From positions 1-13,673 of the forward strand of contig JAKOSS010000878.1 of NCBI GenBank assembly GCA_029777145.1: a stretch of 13,673 nucleotides of DNA, given 5' to 3'. The stretch's first letter is position 1. The number at the start of each line of letters is the position of its first letter. The notes beneath the pieces are model-generated. The model searched no databases. It saw nothing but the letters and a program-made list of their open reading frames with translations, and was not told the origin of the DNA. This stretch comes from Acidobacteriota bacterium. Its GTDB lineage: Bacteria > Acidobacteriota > Blastocatellia > Pyrinomonadales > Pyrinomonadaceae. A program made the translations under genes and the position numbers. Shown here piece by piece: positions 332 to 13,536 of the stretch.

Positions 332-2143
332 ATGAAGACAAAGATCAGTCTAATCTACTTTGTAATTCTTACCCTTCTCGTTGTCGGCTTGTTTCCGTTA
401 CTGCTCGTCAGTTGGACACTTTCAGACCGCAGCGCGAAGGAATTGCGCGCGCTCGAAGGCCGGTACCAGACACAGCTCGTACAGGACAAGGCCCGTCAGA
501 TCGAATTGTTCGGGCAACGCTATGGCGATCTTGTCGCCAGCTACGCCAAAGCTCTCGAACTCTCAAATGACTTTTCCGTACTTTCATCACCGCAAACCGA
601 AGAAAAACTCGGGACTACGCTTGAGGAAAATCCGTTTCTTCTAGCGCTTTACATCAAACCCGTCGGCTCCGAATCGATCGCCGTCCGCCGTGCCAAATTC
701 GTCGCGACCGAAGAACTGGAACAGATGTCGTCCGACTTTGCGAGGTCCTTTGAAAATCGGCGACTCGTCTTCGGCAAGCCCCAGAAAATTCCAACAAGCG
801 GCGAGATCGTGCTTCCGATCGCGTCGCCGGTGATCATCAACGGCAATGTGTCGGCGACCGTCATGGCCGTCGTCAGTCTGCGGGAGATCTCGCGGATCAT
901 GGCCGAGACGCGACCGATGTCGGAAGCCGAACTCTGGAATTCCGGTCTGCCGATAATCCTCGTCGTTGACGAGACCGGAAGCGCGGTTTTTCACCCGGAC
1001 GCCTCGGTCGTCGCTTCGCAGAAATCGTTTGCGTCGCTGAAGATCGTTCAGGAATGGATGGAGTCCAGTGTTCAGGTTCAATCGGCGCTCGTGCCGTTCT
1101 CGACCGAATACGACAGCAAAGAGCACGAAATGATCGGCGCATATTCGACGGCCAATCTTCGCAATGAACTGAAACTCGGCGTGATCGCGATGCAGGATGA
1201 GAGCCGCGCGCTGGCGTCCGTCGGCGAAATGCGTCGGACCGTGTGGCTGATCGGACTCGGTTTTGCATTTCTCGCGTTGCTCGTCGGACTCTTTCTCGCG
1301 CGGATGATGACGGTTCCGATCCTCAATCTCGTCTCCGTTGCCCATCAGATCGCCGCGGGCGATTATTCGACGCGTGTCGAAGCCAAGAGTTTTTCAGAGA
1401 TCGGCCAACTGGGCGAATCGTTCAATGTCATGAGCGACAAGGTCCAGGAGCAGATCGAAAAGCTGGCGCGCGCCGCCGAAGAGAACCGCGAATTGTTCGT
1501 CGGAACCGTGAAGGCCCTCGCCGCCGCGATCGACGGCAAGGACCGATACACGCGGGGCCATTCGGAACGCGTCGCACGTTTCTCGGTGGCGATCGGACGA
1601 CGTCTCAGGATGTCCGAGGACGATCTTGAGGCCCTCCGTATCAGCGCTCTCCTTCATGACGTCGGAAAGATCGCGATCGACGATGCGATCCTCAAGAAGC
1701 CGGCGGCTCTGACCGACGAAGAATTCGAGATCATGAAGACGCACCCCCAACGCGGCTTCAAGATCATGTCGCAGATCCCGCGGATGAGTGAATTCCTGCC
1801 CGGAATGTACATGCACCATGAGATGGTGAACGGCCAGGGTTATCCGCAGGGACTCAAGGGTGACGATATTCCGCTGCAGGCGAAGATCGTCTCGGTGGCA
1901 GACACTTTCGACGCTATGACAACCGATCGGCCGTATTCAAAGGGCATGGATCTCGCCGCGGCGCTTGATCGCATCCGGAGTTTCATTGGAACCCGGTACG
2001 ACGGAGCCGTTGTCGAGGCACTCATCCACGCCTGCGAATCCGGTGAGGTCCGGCCCGTCGGCGGCGTCGTCAAACCTAAGCAAACTCCTGTCGCAAACGG
2101 CGACCAGGAGTGTATGAAGTTGTTCGAACGTCGTGTTGCTTAG
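332..2143 (+). CDS. Membrane-anchored HAMP/HD-GYP protein, predicted c-di-GMP phosphodiesterase
   Basis: This 603-residue protein has a classical transmembrane sensor layout. Transmembrane helix 1 is at about 7-28, followed by a periplasmic sensor region of about 270 residues (Cache-like by length and position, not confirmed). Helix 2 is at about 304-323, then a HAMP linker at about 324-377 (ending in an LGESFNVMSDKV-type helix) and a C-terminal HD-GYP domain from about 386 to 580. The HD-GYP signature is complete: H410, the HD pair at 442-443 with K446, H471, the HH pair at 495-496, NGQGYP at 500-505, and D524 in SVADTFDAMT. The HHE..DG.GYP motif reads HHEMVNGQGYP here, so the usual Asp before the glycine is Asn. 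In known members this domain hydrolyses c-di-GMP in the cytoplasm. The ligand of the sensor part is unknown. The ATG at 332 begins a normal membrane helix, but no Shine-Dalgarno sequence precedes it; the bases just upstream are pyrimidine-rich. It is followed after 141 nt by the two membrane paralogs. Confidence 0.93.
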   Translation: MKTKISLIYFVILTLLVVGLFPLLLVSWTLSDRSAKELRALEGRYQTQLVQDKARQIELFGQRYGDLVASYAKALELSNDFSVLSSPQTEEKLGTTLEENPFLLALYIKPVGSESIAVRRAKFVATEELEQMSSDFARSFENRRLVFGKPQKIPTSGEIVLPIASPVIINGNVSATVMAVVSLREISRIMAETRPMSEAELWNSGLPIILVVDETGSAVFHPDASVVASQKSFASLKIVQEWMESSVQVQSALVPFSTEYDSKEHEMIGAYSTANLRNELKLGVIAMQDESRALASVGEMRRTVWLIGLGFAFLALLVGLFLARMMTVPILNLVSVAHQIAAGDYSTRVEAKSFSEIGQLGESFNVMSDKVQEQIEKLARAAEENRELFVGTVKALAAAIDGKDRYTRGHSERVARFSVAIGRRLRMSEDDLEALRISALLHDVGKIAIDDAILKKPAALTDEEFEIMKTHPQRGFKIMSQIPRMSEFLPGMYMHHEMVNGQGYPQGLKGDDIPLQAKIVSVADTFDAMTTDRPYSKGMDLAAALDRIRSFIGTRYDGAVVEALIHACESGEVRPVGGVVKPKQTPVANGDQECMKLFERRVA

Positions 2144-2284: not shown

Positions 2285-3754
2285 ATGCTTCCTACAGATT
2301 GTTTTGAACTTAGGGTCCTTAACCATACGCTTCATGCTGATCGGAACGAGATAATCCGGAAGATCAGAAAAGGCGCGATCGTCCCGGGCGATCAGATTCT
2401 GGAACACAGCGGGACATGGTCGGCGATCGAATCGAGCGCCGAGTTCGGAGAGCTGTTTCTTGAAATGGAGCGTGAGCTGGAAGATTCGCGCGTATCCGAG
2501 TTTCGGGACGTGTACACGAACTTCCAGGTCAAGCCGGCGACGTTTGAATCGTCGGATGATTCCGACCGCTTGGCAAAAAGCTGCGCCATTCATCCCGAAT
2601 CGGCGCCGGTCTACATCTGCTCGGTCTGCGAGAACCTGTTCTGTGCGGACTGCCCGACGATCGTCGACGGCAAGCGGGTTTGCCCGTTTTGCGGCGGACA
2701 ATGCGTCCTTTACCTCGGTCAGCGGTGGTCGTTCGAAAACCGGATCGAGAATCAGTACCGGAACCACGCCGAGGAACCGATCGCAACGGAACCGGTCATC
2801 GCCGTCAGGGAGCGTCTGGAATGGTCCGACTTCACGACCGCCTTTTCCTACCCGATGCGCTTCAAGGCGGGACTTGCGACGTGCGCACTGCTCGGCGTCG
2901 TTCTGTTCTTCGGATTGATAATCACGTTGTTTCGGGGCGACTGGATGTTGATCGTCAGCGGGATCATCGTCCTCTCGCTGATCGCCTTGCAGTTCGGCGT
3001 GATGATCCGGACGTTCGACAACTTCGAACGCGCGGACGAAGAAAGGGGCTACATGCCGCATCTCGCCGATTTCTCGTTCGCCGACGACGTCGTTCATCCG
3101 GTCCTCTCCGGACTCACCGCGTACTTCGAAGCGTTCGGTCCGAGCTTCGCCGTTCTGGTGATCGCGATCGCCGTTGCCTGGAGTGCCGTTGAGACAAATC
3201 TGACGCGGATGGACGGAAAAGCCGACGATACGGGAGCGCTGGTTTCGAGGGTTGTCGACGGCCACGGACCGGAAGCCGAATCGGCGCGGCGACTCGCCGT
3301 CGAACGACGGGTGAGGCAACTCGAATCAGTGTTCGGAAAGAATCATCTGGTCGAGAACGAAGGATTCGAGCGCCTGACCGGCTCGCTGGTCCGGATGACT
3401 GTCTGGTTCGAAATACCGCTGGTCGTGTTATTAGTATTTGGTTTGGTCTTCTTCCCCGGAGTCTGTATCAGTGTTACCCGCAAGCATAGAAACCTCACCG
3501 ACCGCATCGCAGGAGGATTTCGCGAAATGAAAAATATCGGCTTTGATTATGTCAAGATCATGATCTCCCTGATCATTCTTCAACTGATCTCGGCCGTCGC
3601 CGCCACCTCGGCGTCAAAACTGATCACCGCGGCCGGATTCCCGTCGGTCGCGCTTGTGGTCGCGCTGATGATCAGCGGCATATTCGCAGCATATAGTTGG
3701 GTGACGGCATCGGCGATCCTCGGAATTGTCAGGGTCAAGCTCGCCGTCGAATGA
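2285..3754 (+). CDS. B-box-like zinc-finger polytopic membrane protein, paralog A (unknown function)
   Basis: This 489-residue protein has three parts. Residues 1-60 form a small domain resembling GYF/DUF4339-type modules (pattern of L, G-x-I-x-P-G-D and W). Residues 100-136 carry a cross-brace-type metal motif C-x2-H-x8-C-x2-C-x4-C-x2-C-x9-C-x2-C (C100, H103, C112, C115, C120, C123, C133, C136), much like a B-box zinc finger, with one more Cys at 140. The C-terminal half has about six hydrophobic segments (roughly 195-217, 219-242, 285-303, 376-397, 424-443, 451-479). A polar, charged loop lies near 305-370. The next gene encodes a clear paralog with the same order of parts. Shared blocks include DDVVHP (267-272), YP-x-[RK]-FKA near 189-195, and DY-[VF]-KI near 421-425. 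I do not recognise a characterised homologue. The zinc finger may act in protein contacts on the cytoplasmic face, which is inference. The start is set by GGGAGG at 2271-2276. Confidence 0.85.
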   Translation: MLPTDCFELRVLNHTLHADRNEIIRKIRKGAIVPGDQILEHSGTWSAIESSAEFGELFLEMERELEDSRVSEFRDVYTNFQVKPATFESSDDSDRLAKSCAIHPESAPVYICSVCENLFCADCPTIVDGKRVCPFCGGQCVLYLGQRWSFENRIENQYRNHAEEPIATEPVIAVRERLEWSDFTTAFSYPMRFKAGLATCALLGVVLFFGLIITLFRGDWMLIVSGIIVLSLIALQFGVMIRTFDNFERADEERGYMPHLADFSFADDVVHPVLSGLTAYFEAFGPSFAVLVIAIAVAWSAVETNLTRMDGKADDTGALVSRVVDGHGPEAESARRLAVERRVRQLESVFGKNHLVENEGFERLTGSLVRMTVWFEIPLVVLLVFGLVFFPGVCISVTRKHRNLTDRIAGGFREMKNIGFDYVKIMISLIILQLISAVAATSASKLITAAGFPSVALVVALMISGIFAAYSWVTASAILGIVRVKLAVE

Positions 3755-3811
3755 TCCGATCCTCGTTCCCGCCTTCAACGGTCCGTCCCGCCGGATCAGA
3801 TCTCACGTGCC

Positions 3812-3817
3812 GGGAGA
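3812..3817 (+). promoter_or_regulatory. Ribosome binding site deciding the start of the second paralog
   Basis: GGGAGA lies 10 nt before the ATG at 3828. The open frame continues upstream to a TTG at 3726, but that start would lie inside the preceding gene and lacks a comparable site. The first conserved residues (around VWQVDVG) follow directly after the ATG at 3828. Confidence 0.7.
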
Positions 3818-3827
3818 AATTCAAATT

Positions 3828-5690
3828 ATGAACGTTACCGATTTTCAGGAAGTTTGGCAGGTCGATGTCGGAACTCAGGTTTACGAAGCGACGTTCGAAG
3901 TTCTGACTCAATGGATTGGCGAGGGTTCGCTGCTTCCGCAGGACCGCGTCCGCCGGGGCAATCTCCGATGGATCGAGGCCCGGCGGGTTCCGGCGCTGAT
4001 GCCGTTCTTCAACGCCAAGGACGCCGGGACTCCGCCGCCGGTAAGCCAGCCGACGGTCGCGCAGTCAACGGTTACGGAGCCCGCGGTTGATCCCGTTTCC
4101 CGAAGCGTCCCGCCGGCGGTCACTTTCGAGCAAACTCCGGCAACCGCGCCGCCGACCGCGACAACCGCATTCTTTACTGACGGGCCGGCGACGGCTCCCG
4201 ATCCGTTCGATCCGTTTCCGGCAACCGCCGAACCCGCGAATCCCTACAAAACCACTTTCGTCAACGAAGTTCAGCCGCCGCCGTCTTCCGGCATCACCGC
4301 GCCCGTTGCCGCTCCGCCGGAGGCCGCGCCGTTGCCGGATTATCCACAGACCGCCAATTTTGCGCCGGCGCCGACATCGTTCGAGCCCGCCGGAAACGTC
4401 AACGTCTTCGAACCGGCAGGCGTGGCCGAACCCGTTCCGGTCTTCGACGCCGCCGATTTCCAGCTGGCTTGCGCGATGCACCCGGAATCGCCCGCGTTTT
4501 TCGTCTGCGAAACTTGCGCGAACGTCTTTTGCAAAGTCTGTCCGAAATCGTACGGCGGAACCGTGAGGATCTGTCCGTTCTGCGGTGCGATGTGCCAGCG
4601 GATCGAGCAAAAGAAGAAGAAGGACGACGAGATCACGCGAATGCATTCCGAGATCACCGAGGGTTTCGGCTTCGGCGATTTCGGGCGGGCGTTGATATAT
4701 CCCTTCAAGTTCAAGGCGAGCCTCTTTTTCGGGGCGATCCTGTTCATGTTCTTCACGCTCGGCCAGAACGCATCGTCGGTCGGCGGTATCTTTATGCTGT
4801 CGGCCTCGCTGACGTGCTACATGCTGAGCAACATGCTCTATTTCGGCATTCTGACGAACGTTCTCGAAAACTTTTCACAAGGGATCACGAACCGGAATTT
4901 CATGCCGAGTTTCGATGAGTTCTCGCTCTGGGACGATGTCGTCCATCCTTTTTTCCTCAGCATCGCGGTCTATCTTGTGTCGTTCGGTCTGTTTGTGCTC
5001 ATCGCCGTTGGGGTCGTGCTTTACGGAGCAAACGCGGTGGCGAGCAGCTTCGATAATTCGCCAAGCATTACTCAGGCTCACAACGAGGAGGCGGAGCGAT
5101 TCGCGCGTCAGTTTCAGGAGCGCGGCCGCGTCGAGCCTTACGGGTCAAACTCCCAAGTGTCGCCGGGCGACTCAGACGAGGACGCGGAATTCGAGAAGAT
5201 GAACGAATTCATCCAGGAACAGCGCCGGAAGCAATTGGAATCGGGAATCGGAAAAACACCGGAGACCGTTGAAAAAGAACGGAACGAGATGATCGCCGGC
5301 TTCTTCAAAACCGCTCTCCCGCTGCTGCTTCTGGCGGGTGCGGCGATGCTCTGGGGAATCTTCTATTTCCCGGCGGCTTGCATGGTCGCCGGATATACGC
5401 GATCGTTCGCGGCGACGATGAATCCGAAGATCGGGATCGATACGATCCGTGTCCTCGGCGCCGATTACTTCAAGATCCTTGTCATGGGATTCCTGGTCGG
5501 CGTGATGTCGGTAACTTTCGGTATAATCCTCAGCATCATTTTCTTCCCGTTCAATCTGCCCGGCGTCGGCAATCTGCCGGCGAAGGCGATCGGATCGTTG
5601 TTCGGATTCTATTTGTCGGTGGTCTTTACGGTCATCCTTGGTTACGCACTTTACAAGAACTCGGGCAAACTACAACTTTACAAGGGTTGA
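3828..5690 (+). CDS. B-box-like zinc-finger polytopic membrane protein, paralog B (unknown function)
   Basis: This 620-residue protein has the same plan as the preceding gene with a long insertion. Residues 8-62 form a GYF/DUF4339-like module (W10, W29 in LTQWIGEGSLLPQDRV, W48). Residues about 65-205 are a low-complexity Pro/Thr/Ala-rich linker, probably disordered. Residues 215-252 carry C-x2-H-x8-C-x2-C-x4-C-x2-C-x10-C-x2-C (C215, H218, C227, C230, C235, C238, C249, C252), followed by C256 and a lysine run at 262-265. About six membrane segments follow (roughly 298-316, 319-342, 375-400, 492-520, 548-575, 588-608), with a charged loop at about 405-490. DDVVHP recurs at 369-374 and DYFKI at 546-550. 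The gene starts 73 nt after its paralog and ends just before a strong terminator, so the two are probably co-transcribed. Function is unknown. The soluble N-terminal modules joined by a flexible linker suggest a membrane-anchored interaction protein, which is inference. The start is chosen by GGGAGA at 3812-3817. Confidence 0.85.
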   Translation: MNVTDFQEVWQVDVGTQVYEATFEVLTQWIGEGSLLPQDRVRRGNLRWIEARRVPALMPFFNAKDAGTPPPVSQPTVAQSTVTEPAVDPVSRSVPPAVTFEQTPATAPPTATTAFFTDGPATAPDPFDPFPATAEPANPYKTTFVNEVQPPPSSGITAPVAAPPEAAPLPDYPQTANFAPAPTSFEPAGNVNVFEPAGVAEPVPVFDAADFQLACAMHPESPAFFVCETCANVFCKVCPKSYGGTVRICPFCGAMCQRIEQKKKKDDEITRMHSEITEGFGFGDFGRALIYPFKFKASLFFGAILFMFFTLGQNASSVGGIFMLSASLTCYMLSNMLYFGILTNVLENFSQGITNRNFMPSFDEFSLWDDVVHPFFLSIAVYLVSFGLFVLIAVGVVLYGANAVASSFDNSPSITQAHNEEAERFARQFQERGRVEPYGSNSQVSPGDSDEDAEFEKMNEFIQEQRRKQLESGIGKTPETVEKERNEMIAGFFKTALPLLLLAGAAMLWGIFYFPAACMVAGYTRSFAATMNPKIGIDTIRVLGADYFKILVMGFLVGVMSVTFGIILSIIFFPFNLPGVGNLPAKAIGSLFGFYLSVVFTVILGYALYKNSGKLQLYKG

Positions 5691-5711: not shown

Positions 5712-5744
5712 GCGGGGGGCGATCTATCCGCCTCCCGCCTTTTT
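5712..5744 (+). terminator. Rho-independent terminator after the paralog pair
   Basis: GCGGGGGGCG (5712-5721) pairs with CGCCTCCCGC (5729-5738) to give a 10-bp stem with a single G-U wobble and a 7-nt loop. It is followed by CTTTTT (5739-5744). It starts 21 nt after the stop codon of paralog B and ends its transcript before ftsY. Confidence 0.88.
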
Positions 5745-5833: not shown

Positions 5834-6871
5834 ATGGCATTTTTTTGGCGGCGAAAAAAAGACGAAGACAAGTTCTCGACCTCGGTTCTGGGCCTCGACA
5901 AGTCGATCGAGGAACTGCAGAAGCAGGAAGAAGAGGCCGAGAAGGCGATCGGCGTAAGGTTTTACAACGCGATCGAAAAGACCCGTTATTCGATCAACAA
6001 CAAGCTCGACACGATCTTCGAAGGGCGCAAGAAGATCGACGACGAATTTCTCGACGAGCTTGAAGAGATGCTGATATCGACTGACATCGGCGTCTCGACG
6101 ACGATGCAGATACTCGATGCGATCCGGCGCGGCGTTTCGCGCCAGGAGATCAACGATCTCGACGCTCTCAAACGCATCATGAAGGGCGAGCTTCTGGCGA
6201 TCCTCAATCATTCGACCGAAAGCGGCGTCGCCGACGAAACGAAGTATGCGCTCGACATCAAGCCGTACGTCCTGATGGTCGTCGGCGTCAACGGCGTCGG
6301 CAAAACGACGACGATCGGCAAACTTGCGCAGCGCATCAAGGCCGAAGGAAACGGCGTCCTGATCTGCGCCGCCGACACCTTCCGCGCCGCCGCCAGCGAC
6401 CAGCTCGAGATCTGGGCTGATCGCGCCGGCGTCGAGATCATCCAGCAAAAGCAGGGAACCGATCCGGCAGCGGTGTTGTTCGATTCGCTGCACGCCGCCA
6501 AGGCACGCAGCGCCGACGTTTTGATCGTCGATACCGCCGGCCGGCTCCATAACAAGTCGAACCTGATGGCCGAACTCGAAAAGATGAAGCGCGTCGCCGG
6601 CCGCGAAGTTGACGGCGCGCCGCACGAGACCCTGCTCGTGATCGACGCGGTCACCGGGCAGAACGGACTCGAGCAGGCGCGGCAGTTCATGAGAACCGCC
6701 GATGTCACGGGGATCGTTCTGACGAAACTCGACGGGACGGCGAAGGGCGGGATCGCCGTCGCGATCGCCAAGGAACTGAATCTTCCGATCCGTTATGTCG
6801 GCGTCGGCGAAAAGGTCGACGACCTGATGGTCTTCGATGCCGAACAGTACGTCAACGGGCTTTTCAACTGA
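5834..6871 (+). CDS. ftsY: Signal recognition particle receptor FtsY
   Basis: This 345-residue SRP receptor GTPase works at the inner membrane. It binds the Ffh-4.5S RNA complex and hands ribosomes making membrane proteins to the Sec translocon. An N-domain helical bundle covers about 40-130. The NG GTPase motifs are all intact: P-loop [10 protein letters not shown] at 151-160, DTFRAAA at 181-187, DTAGR at 233-237, TKLD at 297-300 and the closing GVGEKVDDL at 323-331. The charged N-terminus (residues 1-39, with two basic clusters and a Glu-rich stretch) is short. The long acidic A domain of the E. coli protein is absent, as in many phyla. The ATG at 5834 is the obvious start, although a strong Shine-Dalgarno sequence is lacking. 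Only 5 nt separate it from ribD, implying co-transcription and probable translational coupling. Confidence 0.98.
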
Positions 6872-7987: not shown

Positions 7988-9466
7988 TCACGGGAGCATG
8001 AATCCGAGATCATCGACCGCGAAATTGCCGAGATTCGGAAATACATACGGGAGATCGCTGTTCGAAAGCCCGAACCATTTCGCGAGCGTCGCCGCGTACT
8101 GTTCGACCGAAGTTGTCGGAATCCAGCGTCCGCGGGCGGCCGAACCGCTGTCGGCATCGTCCGGTCCGTTCTGCACGAGCGTCGGAAACGGCGTACCGTT
8201 CGAGGCGTTCATCCCGTAAAAATTCCCGCCGGCGACGGCTCCGCCGACGACGAACGAGTGGTTCGCCCAGGCGTGATCGCTCCCGACATTGACGCCGCTT
8301 CCGCCGGGATTGAACGTCCGGTTGAAATCGGACATCGTGAACTGCGTTACCTTGTCGCTGATCCCCTGAATCACCATCTCGTCGTAGAACGCCCGCATCG
8401 CCTGGCCGAGTTGGCCGAACAGTGCAGCCTGGCCGAGCAACTGCCCGGTGTGCGTATCGAAGCCGTCAAGCCGGCAATAAAAGACCTGCCGTGAGACGTT
8501 CAGGATCGAACGCGTCTTGATCATTCGCGCGGCTTGTTTGAGCTGATTGCCGATCTCCGTGTTCGGGAACGTCGCGGTGACCTCCGGTGACGAATTCAAC
8601 GCTTCGCTGATCTGAAGCGCCTGCGTATGGACATTGCTCGACGCGGCGATCAACTCCTGTCCGGAATCGAATCCGAGCGCCGCCTGAAGAGCCGCAAAAC
8701 GCGCGTCCGTGACCGGCGTATTGTTGTAGCCGATGAGCGACAGGACATTCGCGAGGGAGGTCGGCGCGGGCGCGAGCGCGAGCGGCTGCGTCGTGTCGCC
8801 GATCGTGAACAGCAAATTGCCTCCGAACGAACTGACGAACGGGACAAGTGCCGCCGGATTCGACGCGGTCGTCATCTTGTCCGCGATCCGTCCGCCCCAA
8901 CCCGTCAGCGAGACCGAATCCGCCCGGCAGGTATAATGTTGCGCCGTCTGATCCGTATGCGAAAAGAGCTGGAACGGACGCGGGACCGAGCCGCTCTGCC
9001 ACTGCGCACGCGTCATCGGCGCGACCAGCGTTCCGATATTCGTGACCGCCGCCAGCCGGCCCTGCGCCCACAGCTCGTAAATTCCGTTGTTGACCCCGCC
9101 GGTCACCGGCCCGAAGCTCGGGTGAAGCCCGTACGAGAGCCCGCCGATCCGCGGCACGGAAACCGGCAGCAATGAAGCCTGGGAAAGCGCCAGTCCCTGC
9201 GGCGACCTCGCCGCCGAATATGACGCATAGTTGCTGACATTCTGATCGTCATGCGCCGGAACGATCATGTTGTTGCCGTCGTTTCCTCCGGAAAGGTAAA
9301 CGAGAACCAGCGCGCGATAGTCGGACGGCGTCCCCGACGGCCGTTTGACGGATCGTTTCTGCGCGAGCGCACTGATCGAGCCGAAAAAACCGATCTCGGA
9401 CGCAAGTGCCGACATCGTGACGGCCCCGCCAAGTGATTTCAAGAAGCTGCGTCTGTTGTTTTTCAT
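7988..9466 (-). CDS. DUF1501 family protein, Tat-exported
   Basis: This 492-residue protein belongs to the DUF1501 family, which has distant alkaline-phosphatase/sulfatase-like sequence features but no settled function. It begins with a twin-arginine signal (NRRSFLK at 4-10, hydrophobic stretch, ALA cleavage site near 33-35), so it should be exported folded, possibly carrying a bound metal. Family blocks visible are [10 protein letters not shown] (57-66), FSHTDQ (168-173), DGFDTH (334-339), SDFNRT (379-384) and GSDHAWANH (395-403). The His and Asp residues in these blocks are candidate metal ligands. The start ATG has a good Shine-Dalgarno sequence. The gene follows the DUF1800 gene by 26 nt in the same operon, an order found repeatedly in bacteria. 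Its stop codon is 4 bp from the ribD stop, tail to tail, with no terminator between. Confidence 0.92.
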
Positions 9467-9474
9467 TGAATAAA

Positions 9475-9478
9475 CCTC
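9475..9478 (-). promoter_or_regulatory. Ribosome binding site of the DUF1501 gene
   Basis: Read on the minus strand, GAGG (within CTGAGG) lies 8 nt before the ATG at 9466. It sits in the 26-nt gap after the DUF1800 stop codon, so the second gene of the pair has its own initiation site and does not depend fully on translational coupling. Confidence 0.7.
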
Positions 9479-9492
9479 AGCTATTTGCGCAC

Positions 9493-11601
9493 TCAGCGCT
9501 GGATCTGAAATTGCGACGAAGCCGCGACAAGGTAAACAGCCTGTTTCGCCCTCAACGCCGGATTCGATTCCGGCACGGCGAGAATCGCGTTCAGCAGCGA
9601 ATCACGGTGTTCGGCTGAGATCGTGCCGTGCAACAGTCGGTAATCAAGCAGATCGACGAGTCTGTTGCCCGTCGGGTCGGCCGCGGCCGCTTCGGTCGCC
9701 TCGCTGAGGTCGATCGATATTCCCCGAAGCGAGTCGGTCGCGTTCGGGGCGAAACCGTCGAAAACGAGCACCGAAATGAAGTTCGTCCGGTTCGTCGCGA
9801 GCGACGTGTTCAAAAGCGCGAATTCGGGCGCATTGAGCGAGGTCCCCGGAACGATGAAATCAGGCGGGTAGTAGTTGAAAACGGTCGGCGAATTGAAAGG
9901 ATTCTGGCCGAGTTTCTTCATCGGATCGCTCAACCCGCCGTCGGTGATCGATTCGCCGTTCCACGAACGCGCCGGAAAGTTCCTTCCGAGATTCGTCATC
10001 AATTGAACGGGTTCACGGAGTTTTCCGTATCGCGGAGCCGTCTTGACGTCGCCGCGGGCCTCGGGATCGAGCAGGATCGCTTTGATCACGGCCTTCATGT
10101 CGCCGCGGACGTTCTGTCCGTTGTTGTTGAAGACATTCGCGACGCGTTCGACGTATGCCGGCGACGGATCGCTGGTGACGAGATGCTGGATCATCAGCCG
10201 GCCGATATACGGACCGACGTTCGGATGGTTGAAAATGTTGTCGATCGCGGCGTTCAGCGAAGCATATGCATAAGTCGAGGTCGCTTCCGGCGTCGCGCAA
10301 TCGGCACATGCAGCGATCTCATTCACCGCTCCGGGATAATCGAGGAGCGATTTCGGCCCGGTGTCGTGATTTGCCGGATTGAGCAACATCGGATCCTTGA
10401 AATTCTGGATCCCGGGAATCGCGCTCGGACAACCTGCCGTGTTGCAGAACGTCCAACCGGTGAAGACTTTCGCGAAGTTGTTGACGGTTTCCTGATCGTA
10501 GGTCGCGATCGGGTTGTTTGATCCGTCGCGTTGGATCGTCCCGTCGGGATTGAGCCTGAAGAGTCCGATCGAGAACAGTTGGAGGATCTCGCGTCCGTAA
10601 TTTTCGTTCGGATTGTTCTTCGTACTGCGGACCATATCGAGGTAATCGCCCATCGCCGGATTCAGCGTGACGTCATAAAGGATGTCGCGGTAATTCGAAA
10701 ACGCATCCCGGGCGAGCAGTTTCTGATACGCGATCATGTGGCCCGACTGCTGGATCGTCACCCCCGAAGTGACGAGTATCTGACTCAGCGCCCACGCTAC
10801 ACGGTGCCGAAGCTGCGCATCACCGTAATAAGCTTCCTTGAAGAACCATTGCTGCAACGGCTGCATCGTGTAGCGCTCCCTAAAACACGCGGGAAACGTC
10901 GTCGCCGAGCACGACGTCGGCGGCGTCGTCGGCATCATCGGAATGTCAGGGTAGGGAATCGTCGGATACGGAGCGTCGAATTGTTCCGCGAGCCACGTGC
11001 GCAGGCCGATCCGGCGGAGTCGATTGTCGAGCTGCGCGGTCGGGCCAAACGCGGCCTGTTCGAGAAAACGGATGCGGTCACCGGACCATCGGTATCCAAC
11101 GACCTCGGGAGCCGGAGTCGCGGAATTTGCGGGGCGCAAGCCCGACGGTATCCCGATCGTTCCTCCGGTGCGCCCGAGGTTGATCTTAACGACGTTGCTC
11201 ATCAACCCGCGCCACGTCACGTAGATCAGCGATTCGCCGTCGAAAACCGGTTCGCTGTAATTTCCGGTCGCGTCGGCGATCCGCACCGTAAGTGCGATAC
11301 CGGACTTTTCGGATCTGTCGAATTTCTCAACCGGCAGCTGAAAGGTACGCCCGCTTTTTTGGTAAAGAAAGACACCGAACGCCCGCGGATCGTTACCGTC
11401 CGCATCGCCGAGATCCGCCAGGCGAAGGCGGGCGTACGGCCGATCAGGGCTGACGATCGCGCCCCGTGATGGCTTTCCCAAGGTTTCCAGGCCCGTCAGT
11501 ACCGGTGCAGGCGAGTTCGGGTCGGGATCGTCCTCACCGAAAACGTGTGTCGGAACGATGAAAAGGATCGCCGCGAAAATCAGGAACGCAAACTTATTCA
11601 T
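9493..11601 (-). CDS. DUF1800 family protein, Sec-exported
   Basis: This 702-residue protein (from the ATG at 11601) has a Sec-type signal peptide at about 1-22 (basic N-terminus, hydrophobic core, cleavage near VFG-ED). An N-terminal beta-rich region lies at about 30-150, and the DUF1800 domain runs from about 175 to the C-terminus. Family blocks include [11 protein letters not shown] (178-188), [11 protein letters not shown] (267-277), [17 protein letters not shown] (332-348) and [12 protein letters not shown] (374-385). It ends in SSQFQIQR, the usual C-terminus of the family. Three closely spaced Cys pairs (231/239, 386/391, 432/435) could form disulfides after export. An open frame extends 60 codons upstream to 11781, but that would overlap rsmA and bury the signal peptide. 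The ATG at 11601 has a GGGG stretch 7 nt upstream. The DUF1501 gene follows directly. Members of this pair are presumed to act together outside the cytoplasm; the biochemical role is not established. Confidence 0.92.
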
Positions 11602-11653
11602 GGTTGAACCCCGGTTGATCTGCTGGATTGGTGGCAATGATGCGAACTCTGGA

Positions 11654-11682
11654 AGAGTAAACGACACTCGGATTATTTTCAA
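11654..11682 (-). promoter_or_regulatory. Candidate promoter for the DUF1800-DUF1501 operon
   Basis: On the minus strand, TTGAAA (11682-11677, 5 of 6 to the -35 consensus) is followed after exactly 17 bp by TACTCT (11659-11654, 3 of 6). Transcription would begin near 11647, giving a leader of about 45 nt. The -10 is poor, so this is only a candidate. Confidence 0.3.
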
Positions 11683-11701
11683 CAGAAACATTCGGCGCGG
11701 C

Positions 11702-11730
11702 TTCAAACTCTCGGTCGAAACGCCTAAACT
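11702..11730 (+). promoter_or_regulatory. Candidate promoter for rsmA
   Basis: TTCAAA (11702-11707, 4 of 6) and TAAACT (11725-11730, 4 of 6) are 17 bp apart. The predicted transcription start near 11737 falls only about 2 nt before the rsmA ATG at 11739. A real promoter here would yield a nearly leaderless mRNA, which fits the lack of any Shine-Dalgarno sequence before that ATG. Confidence 0.35.
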
Positions 11731-11738
11731 CGAACCCG

Positions 11739-12545
11739 ATGCGAAATCGCGACCGCGGCATTCCATACGCGAAAAAGTCACTCGGGCAGAACTTCTTGGC
11801 CGATCGGGCGATCGTGCGCAAGATCGTCGACAGCCTTGAGGTCGCGAACGGCGAACCGGTGATCGAGATCGGCCCGGGACGCGGAGCCCTGACGGAGGAA
11901 CTTCTGGTGCGCGGTGCCGAAGTGTCGGCGATCGAGATCGATCGGGACCTCGTTCCCGAACTCGCGCAGCAGTTCTCCGATCAGCCTCGGTTCAAAGTGA
12001 TCGAGGCCGACGCTCTGACTGTCGATTTCGGAGAACTTGCAGCGTCGCCGTCGAAACTTGCCGCGAATCTTCCGTACTACATTTCGACGCCGATCCTCCG
12101 CCGACTCGCGGAACAGCGATCGTACTTTACAAGCCTCGTTCTGATGCTTCAAAAAGAGGTCGTCGACCGGATGACGGCACCGCCCGGCAACAGCGATCGG
12201 GGCTTTCTGACCGTGATCGTCGAAGCCGCTTTCGACGCCGAGAAGCTTTTTGACGTGCCTCCGGGTGCGTTCCGACCGGTTCCAAAAGTCACGAGTTCCG
12301 TTGTCAGATTGACGCCTAAGGATTGCGGGATCACAAATGAGAGGCAGTTTGAAATGGTCGTCAGCGCGGGATTCAAGCAGAAACGCAAGACCTTGCTGAA
12401 CAATCTGAAAAAGGCGCCGGAGCTTGGATTTGATGATCCGGCGGACATAATGTCGCGCGCCGGGATCGACCAAAAAGCAAGGGCCGAAGACCTGACGCTA
12501 GAAGACTGGAGGCGGTTGGCGGATGCCGTGTCGCTTACTTCTTGA
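11739..12545 (+). CDS. rsmA: 16S rRNA (adenine1518-N6/adenine1519-N6)-dimethyltransferase RsmA (KsgA)
   Basis: This 268-residue SAM-dependent enzyme dimethylates two adjacent adenines in the 3' terminal helix of 16S rRNA late in small-subunit assembly. The N-terminus contains the family tag KKSLGQNFL (12-20). The SAM site is EIGPGRGALT (43-52) with acidic E66/D68 at the end of the second strand and D91 in EADAL. The catalytic NLPYYIS motif is at 110-116. QKEVVDRMTAPPGNSDRG (128-145) and FRPVPKVTSSVV (168-179) are also conserved family blocks. The C-terminal helical domain with KQKRKTLLNNL (214-224) is complete, and length is normal. The ATG at 11739 is the natural start, with no Shine-Dalgarno sequence. 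The last 11 bp overlap the 3' end of the convergent VWA gene. Confidence 0.97.
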   Translation: MRNRDRGIPYAKKSLGQNFLADRAIVRKIVDSLEVANGEPVIEIGPGRGALTEELLVRGAEVSAIEIDRDLVPELAQQFSDQPRFKVIEADALTVDFGELAASPSKLAANLPYYISTPILRRLAEQRSYFTSLVLMLQKEVVDRMTAPPGNSDRGFLTVIVEAAFDAEKLFDVPPGAFRPVPKVTSSVVRLTPKDCGITNERQFEMVVSAGFKQKRKTLLNNLKKAPELGFDDPADIMSRAGIDQKARAEDLTLEDWRRLADAVSLTS

Positions 12546-13536
12546 CGCGGTAGCTGTATCGCGAGCGGACCGAAACGTCCGGACGCGAAACTTTGACCTT
12601 GATCTCGTGGACGGACGAATCGTCGAGGCCTTCATCCGGATAGAATCCGATCCGATACTGCTGACGGAGTTCCTGCGCGATGCTCAGAAAAACCTTATCG
12701 AGATCGTTGTCCTTTTTCTCAAAAAGCGTGCCCGCCGACAAATCCGCGAGTCGTTTCAGATAATCCATCGCGCGCTCGTTCTGGATCTCGTCGCGGCGCC
12801 GGACCCGGTCGTCCTGACGCGGAAACGGCCGTCGGTTGCGCCCCATTCCTCCGCCGAACCGCCGGTTGCGTCTCATCATCACCTGCTGCCTGAACGAGGT
12901 TTCATAGAAGATCGGATAGATCATTACGTCCGATTCCTCGATCCGGCGGAGAACTTCGTTTTCGAGCGCATAACTCCCGAAATCCTTTCCGTCGGTCAGC
13001 ATGATGATCGCCTTGCGCCCGGTCGATTTGGACAGATGCTTGGTCACCGTGTCGATCACCGCATCGCGCATCACGGTGCCTGTCATCTCGCCGATCTCGA
13101 CGTCCTTGATCGCTTTTTCAAGCTGTTTCTTGTCGGAAGTCAGAGGCGAATTGATGTGGACGTCGTAATCGAACGACACGATCATTGCGCTGTCATTCGG
13201 TGAAAGGATTCTGACAAACTCTTTGGCGGCTTTTTTGATGTTACCGAGAACGCCTTCGGTGCTCCGGCTCGTATCGAGCAGAATCGCCACCCTGAGCGGC
13301 TCTTCGGCGGTAGCGAAAAAGGCGATCTCGCGGGGTTTTCCGTCGGACCACACCGCAAATTCTTCGCGTTTCAAGCCCGGAAGATAACGTCCCTGACGGT
13401 CGCTGACGACGACCGGGACACTCACCAAGCTCGTCTCGACGCGGATCGTTTCGCTGTCCTCGGTCTGCGCGTAGACCGGCGCGATCGCTGCCAAAAGCGG
13501 TAAGAGAAGGATTCCGATGCGGATTCGGGCATTCAT
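12535..13536 (-). CDS. Exported VWA-domain protein of the acidobacterial VWFA-related type
   Basis: This 333-residue protein has a Sec signal peptide (about 1-23, cleavage near VYA-Q). A beta-rich N-terminal segment (about 30-75) contains the VSVPVVVSDRQGRYLPGL and FAVWSDGKP pattern seen at the front of the acidobacterial VWFA-related family. A VWA domain spans about 82-290. The metal-ion-dependent adhesion site is complete: D88-x-S90-x-S92, T154 and D182. A C-terminal beta segment (about 291-333) has YRIGFYP. An unusual stretch at about 207-250 is very rich in Arg with Gly and Pro, and interrupts the domain between a predicted strand (MIYPIFYE) and helix (MDYLKRLADLSAGTLF). The likely setting is the periplasm or outer surface, in metal-dependent protein contacts; the partner is unknown. 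No clear Shine-Dalgarno sequence precedes the ATG. Instead a perfect 9-bp dyad sits 3 nt in front of it. Confidence 0.9.
   Translation of the reverse strand: MNARIRIGILLLPLLAAIAPVYAQTEDSETIRVETSLVSVPVVVSDRQGRYLPGLKREEFAVWSDGKPREIAFFATAEEPLRVAILLDTSRSTEGVLGNIKKAAKEFVRILSPNDSAMIVSFDYDVHINSPLTSDKKQLEKAIKDVEIGEMTGTVMRDAVIDTVTKHLSKSTGRKAIIMLTDGKDFGSYALENEVLRRIEESDVMIYPIFYETSFRQQVMMRRNRRFGGGMGRNRRPFPRQDDRVRRRDEIQNERAMDYLKRLADLSAGTLFEKKDNDLDKVFLSIAQELRQQYRIGFYPDEGLDDSSVHEIKVKVSRPDVSVRSRYSYRVKK

Follow-up and report, generated by a model that had tools for sequence, protein, structure and literature searches.

A zinc module, a GYF domain and a membrane segment meet in GltJ of Myxococcus xanthus, where the zinc module lies before the GYF domain, a single membrane helix is present and the protein belongs to a motility complex; none of the literature searches that paired GltJ with GYF or zinc turned up a paper treating it in these terms. 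In planctomycete conflict systems, another bacterial case of GYF joined to a membrane part, a pair of GYF domains is fused to a region rich in transmembrane segments and linked to GTPase-centred systems (PMC7159879). A further comparison is offered by the eukaryotic CTL/PNS1 (SLC44) proteins, whose membrane hairpins are joined by short helices parallel to the membrane (PMC13160678). The subject here is a pair of adjacent genes, A and B, in a stretch of 13,673 nucleotides (the window) from an Acidobacteriota bacterium (assembly GCA_029777145.1, contig JAKOSS010000878.1). Both are open frames on the same strand, with an HD-GYP gene on one side and ftsY on the other, and both encode, in this order, a GYF-type module, a Cys/His module and a polytopic membrane domain. 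GltJ differs from them in its module order, its single membrane helix and its motility complex. The planctomycete proteins differ in their GYF pair and GTPase link and, as far as the available text of PMC7159879 goes, in that no zinc module is mentioned. The parts of A and B are the following.

2285..3754, plus strand: protein A, 489 residues, rare paralog (open frame, protein search, A/B alignment, tree, genome profile search)
2288..2473, plus strand: diverged GYF-like N-terminal module of A (aligned with B-type modules, 13% identity to B)
2582..2704, plus strand: zinc-type Cys/His module of A, residues 100-140 (7/7 A-type rows keep nine ligand candidates unchanged)
2708..3751, plus strand: membrane domain of A (23% identity to that of B in the alignment)
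3828..5690, plus strand: protein B, 620 residues, member of a widespread family (open frame, protein search, loci survey)
3840..4025, plus strand: GYF_2-like domain of B
4026..4469, plus strand: Pro/Thr-rich linker of B, containing a PPP segment close to its N-terminal end (predicted local distance difference test score, pLDDT, for the most part below 50)
4470..4595, plus strand: zinc-type Cys/His module of B, residues 215-256 (invariant or nearly so in the B-type alignment)
4599..5687, plus strand: membrane domain of B, DUF4013-related, six core helices forming three hairpins (model pLDDT 89.7, predicted template modelling score 0.78)
5049..5255, plus strand: charged insert of B that separates membrane helices 3 and 4, residues 408-476 (placed outside by the predicted topology)

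Sequence comparison identifies A and B as members of one family and as an old pair of paralogs. Their alignment covers 426 columns at 27% identity (E 1e-37), bearing out both the paralogy and the unusual common architecture claimed in an initial annotation of this stretch. In a tree of 32 proteins, the A clade (7 rows) was separated with support 100/100 from B and its distant relatives (25 rows); the forks around these relatives stay open, and the B-types are not established as one clade. The distinction between B and the distant relatives rests on score and, for seven of the outlying loci, also on the tree. A recent duplication of B into A was ruled out by the tree. A-type genes are rare: the protein search with A gave three matches, which represent close relatives only, as the search missed even B. 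An A profile scored 746-751 bits in 3 of 162 genomes of the class, these three being themselves rows of the profile used, and the next match reached 386 bits (counts over the 162 genomes cover rows entered from class genomes). Genome G135 shows HD-GYP, A, B and ftsY in the arrangement of the window; because it repeats this order, the tandem is present in two diverged lineages. G136 holds HD-GYP, A and ftsY, with no separate B among the matches listed, and in G059 A lies elsewhere and B occupies the HD-GYP/ftsY locus.

The protein search with B returned 732 matches among 7997 scored candidates. B is a member of a large, well-conserved, uncharacterised family of soil Acidobacteriota and is not peculiar to the window. 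A full-length match to a known family, which the initial annotation had named as counting against it, did not turn up: no Pfam model matched A or B over the full length. PADLOC and PHROGs gave no matches for either protein, and literature searches found no paper treating the architecture of the family.

The N-terminal domain structurally matches solved GYF domains, and this part of the structural check proposed earlier had a positive outcome; Foldseek gave no match at E<=0.001 for either model. Window B scored 16.4 bits against GYF_2 (PF14237), below the gathering cut-off of 25.8, and a GYF_2 match at E<=1 was seen in 42/55 N-termini of the family. Full-length protein A had no GYF match in the Pfam search, and a PDB sequence search with the alignment of the N-terminal module gave one unrelated row (E 0.29). 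The linker between the GYF and Cys/His modules, measurable in 114 of the 120 B-search proteins, ranges from 43 to 156 residues with a median of 94. That of window B has 153, and the suggestion that B had gained its linker was rejected on this comparison. Directly after the GYF domain, 60/114 linkers carry PPP or PPxP, against 12.5 after shuffling (maximum 23 in 200). As these rows are related, the enrichment supports, rather than tests, binding; it suggests that the GYF domain may bind a proline-rich peptide. In window A no such proline run follows the GYF-like module. In 5/7 A-type rows, the stretch that separates this module from the Cys/His module carries a motif, [IV][FY]TNFQV. It lies at 2510-2530 of the window (A residues 76-82) and occurs in L094, P0002, P0003 and P0004, and as a variant in L004; L089 has none.

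The classical B-box ends in a His-His ligand pair. The module of A and B agrees with B-box zinc fingers (PF00643) in how the first six ligands are spaced and differs in its last pair, Cys-x2-Cys in 117/120 B-search proteins, in a ninth Cys, and in scores of 16.5 (A) and 16.2 bits (B), below the gathering cut-off of 24.1. The B-box likeness seen by the initial annotation thus stands for the spacing, and B-box membership was rejected on the scores and on the Cys residues in place of the final His pair. A PDB sequence search with the B-type alignment gave weak rows, many of RING type, the best at E 0.017. The strict nine-ligand pattern was kept in 117/120 B-search proteins, as are the nine candidates in every A-type row, and the module probably binds zinc. 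Such conservation could also be expected of a head that responds to zinc or oxidants by altering the membrane part. We consider a metal or redox sensor of this kind very unlikely, since the near-fixed spacing, of B-box/RING kind, suggests a structural zinc fold; moreover, no metal-homeostasis gene was seen among the neighbours examined, which are only partly annotated.

The membrane domain of B resembles DUF4013 (PF13197), a Pfam model without assigned function that describes the same membrane domain and includes neither a GYF nor a zinc part. Window B scored 16.3 bits (17.6 for the domain alone) against a cut-off of 26.9. DUF4013 was matched at E<=1 in 43/55 family members and exceeded its cut-off in 6/58 class genomes, in 6/6 at genes that the B profile also finds. 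As modelled, this DUF4013-related domain has six helices in three hairpins, each starting with a short helix or turn, and the membrane part of A and B would form a six-helix bowl. The best structural rows were SLC44 proteins, yeast PNS1 and human CTL1, which covered nearly the whole domain at 11% and 8% identity. The CTL membrane fold includes three hairpins with amphipathic helices AH1-AH3. The modelled domain may share with the CTL proteins the hairpins with short helices; M1-M4 of the latter have no counterpart in it, and the available text describes no GYF plus zinc head for either CTL1 or PNS1 (PMC13160678). The SLC44 family (PF04515) was not among the best 25 of 51 families for the membrane domain, and a genome search with PF04515 gave no matches anywhere, controls included. 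Alignments of the three supposed internal repeats with one another brought out no similarity, with hhalign probabilities of 0.9% (r1/r3), 4.0% (r1/r2), 6.0% (r1/r2a) and 0.2% (r2a/r3). The charged insert of B ends in QLES..GK.PET, which is conserved in the B-types, partly kept in the A-types and absent from the distant relatives.

The SLC44 rows raise the question of transport, as these proteins have long been called choline transporters. PNS1 is reported to be structurally similar to the sulfate permease CysZ (PMC13160678). The bowl could then move a small solute or lipid, with the cytosolic head as its gate. Against this, CTL1, PNS1 and CherI showed no choline transport in oocytes, and in the available text the authors lean to a non-transport role while leaving transport under other conditions possible (PMC13160678). 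Nor was the match of the membrane-domain alignment to EI24/CysZ (PF07264) significant (hhalign probability 2.6%, P 0.018; 12/14 loci contributed one protein each, selected on position and hydrophobicity, of which two fall below the family cut-off). CysZ did not appear in the VIA-align listing, and its absence there carries no weight. A transporter or permease thus appears unlikely to us. The structural hint to CTL/PNS1, unproven as it is, is the most interesting lead. It allows the conjecture, which we also hold to be doubtful, that the DUF4013 membrane domain is a prokaryotic form of the CTL/PNS1 (SLC44) fold, fused to a recruiting head of GYF and zinc modules and wired to HD-GYP as a lipid- or ligand-sensing membrane adaptor.

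The genes and signals that flank the pair are the following.

332..2143, plus strand: HD-GYP gene (Pfam HD_5 1.8e-35, 122.6 bits; HAMP 2.4e-13; dCache_1 below cut-off)
5712..5738, plus strand: terminator-like hairpin and T-run after B (10 pairs, 9 of them G-C)
5834..6871, plus strand: ftsY, next gene and marker of the conserved locus (SRP54 1.2e-76, synteny)

The upstream gene carries an HD motif, LLHDVGK, together with HHE..NGQGYP, and its domain and motif residues mark it as a putative HD-GYP phosphodiesterase of cyclic di-GMP (c-di-GMP). Its closeness to the pair had been noted correctly. HD-GYP lies upstream of B in 39 of the 43 genome loci found with B; in the remaining 4, the start of B lies no more than 133 bases from the end. 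Downstream, ftsY was found in 40/43 (L003 and L027 are too short, and L006 shows none over 6 kb), ribD in 36/43 and rsmA in 32/43. In 37 of the 39 loci with both frames the gap from HD-GYP to B is at most 81 bp, with 10 overlaps; the exceptions are L004, with A in between, and L034, where the B frame starts late. Because the B frame nearly touches that of HD-GYP in these relatives, the two are probably co-transcribed there. The pair is not the local puzzle it had been taken for, because in relatives B regularly forms part of the HD-GYP/ftsY locus and A is a rare old paralog.

The same locus suggests a role for B beside FtsY and the signal recognition particle (SRP), with the zinc/GYF head contacting the ribosome or the signal-recognition machinery as a housekeeping aid to membrane-protein insertion. 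In 46 genomes a gene of the family, the A-type in the case of G136, precedes ftsY by no more than 4 kb. The gaps between B and ftsY are, however, larger and variable (10 to 2186 bp), and in the window the hairpin stands between the two. In addition, 38 genomes have ftsY after HD-GYP with no B next to it, and in 13 the relatives are found elsewhere, so we give an insertion aid little credence.

A B-type, A-type or related gene was present in 65 of the 162 class genomes. In 52 it lay in the HD-GYP/ftsY locus, in 47 of them downstream of HD-GYP and in 5 next to ftsY where a contig ends. No more than 8 kb separates HD-GYP from ftsY in 79/100 genomes. Several counts weigh against a fixed partnership of B with HD-GYP. 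The 38 genomes with HD-GYP near ftsY and no adjacent B keep the order, which is therefore independent of B; the other 13 genomes hold their B relatives outside the locus; and close genomes may lack B (G045, G046, G078, G088, G090). The strongest point is that HD-GYP and B each occur without the other. In the co-occurrence survey proposed by the initial annotation, B was regularly found beside HD-GYP, and a fixed partnership was rejected. Among the 20 outlying loci L075-L094, L089 lies in an HD-GYP locus and the other 19 have no HD-GYP or ftsY match; their largest neighbour group has 6 rows (3 from one locus) and the next 4. B might then merely ride in a stable housekeeping cluster, with a function of its own independent of HD-GYP, as the order HD-GYP, ftsY, ribD, rsmA is kept without B. 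Set against this are the frames of HD-GYP and B, which overlap or nearly touch in nearly all loci with both. Such hitch-hiking, partly compatible with the other readings, is a serious possibility that we nonetheless somewhat doubt.

Elsewhere in the window, GGGAGG stands at 2271-2276, just 5' of the ATG of A, and an Rfam scan of the window gave nothing at gathering scores. DUF1501 and DUF1800 genes lie between ribD and rsmA (7988-11781, minus strand). This pair, whole or cut by a contig end, stands beside ribD in L001, L018, L020, L028, L029, L030, L039, L043 and L098, and was not seen at the remaining loci of the two neighbourhood surveys. A VWA-domain gene (12535-13536, minus strand) overlaps the end of rsmA, with VWA matches among the 43 B loci in L001, L017 and L042 only.

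Overall, the initial observation was confirmed in part and its interpretation found partial support; recruitment through zinc or GYF modules stays an inference. We postulate, with not quite even confidence, that A and B are polytopic membrane adaptor proteins with a peptide-switched GYF/zinc head in an HD-GYP setting. At rest, the GYF domain would dock on a proline-rich segment, normally that at the beginning of its own linker, and the head would be closed. Release could come from a partner peptide, or from a change in the membrane bowl caused by a lipid or small amphipathic ligand, an idea modelled on what is suspected for the PNS1/CTL fold. The freed GYF/zinc head may then recruit a cytosolic partner, and a complex with the HD-GYP phosphodiesterase would be the most likely setting of B here. 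A, which has no such proline run, probably modulates the output or forms a pair with B.

In this family, GYF and B-box-like Cys/His modules are joined to a membrane domain whose best structural likeness is to a eukaryotic family with a debated role; one group of genomes ties this architecture to the gene of a c-di-GMP enzyme. If DUF4013 does have the CTL fold, these proteins would provide a tractable bacterial model for it.
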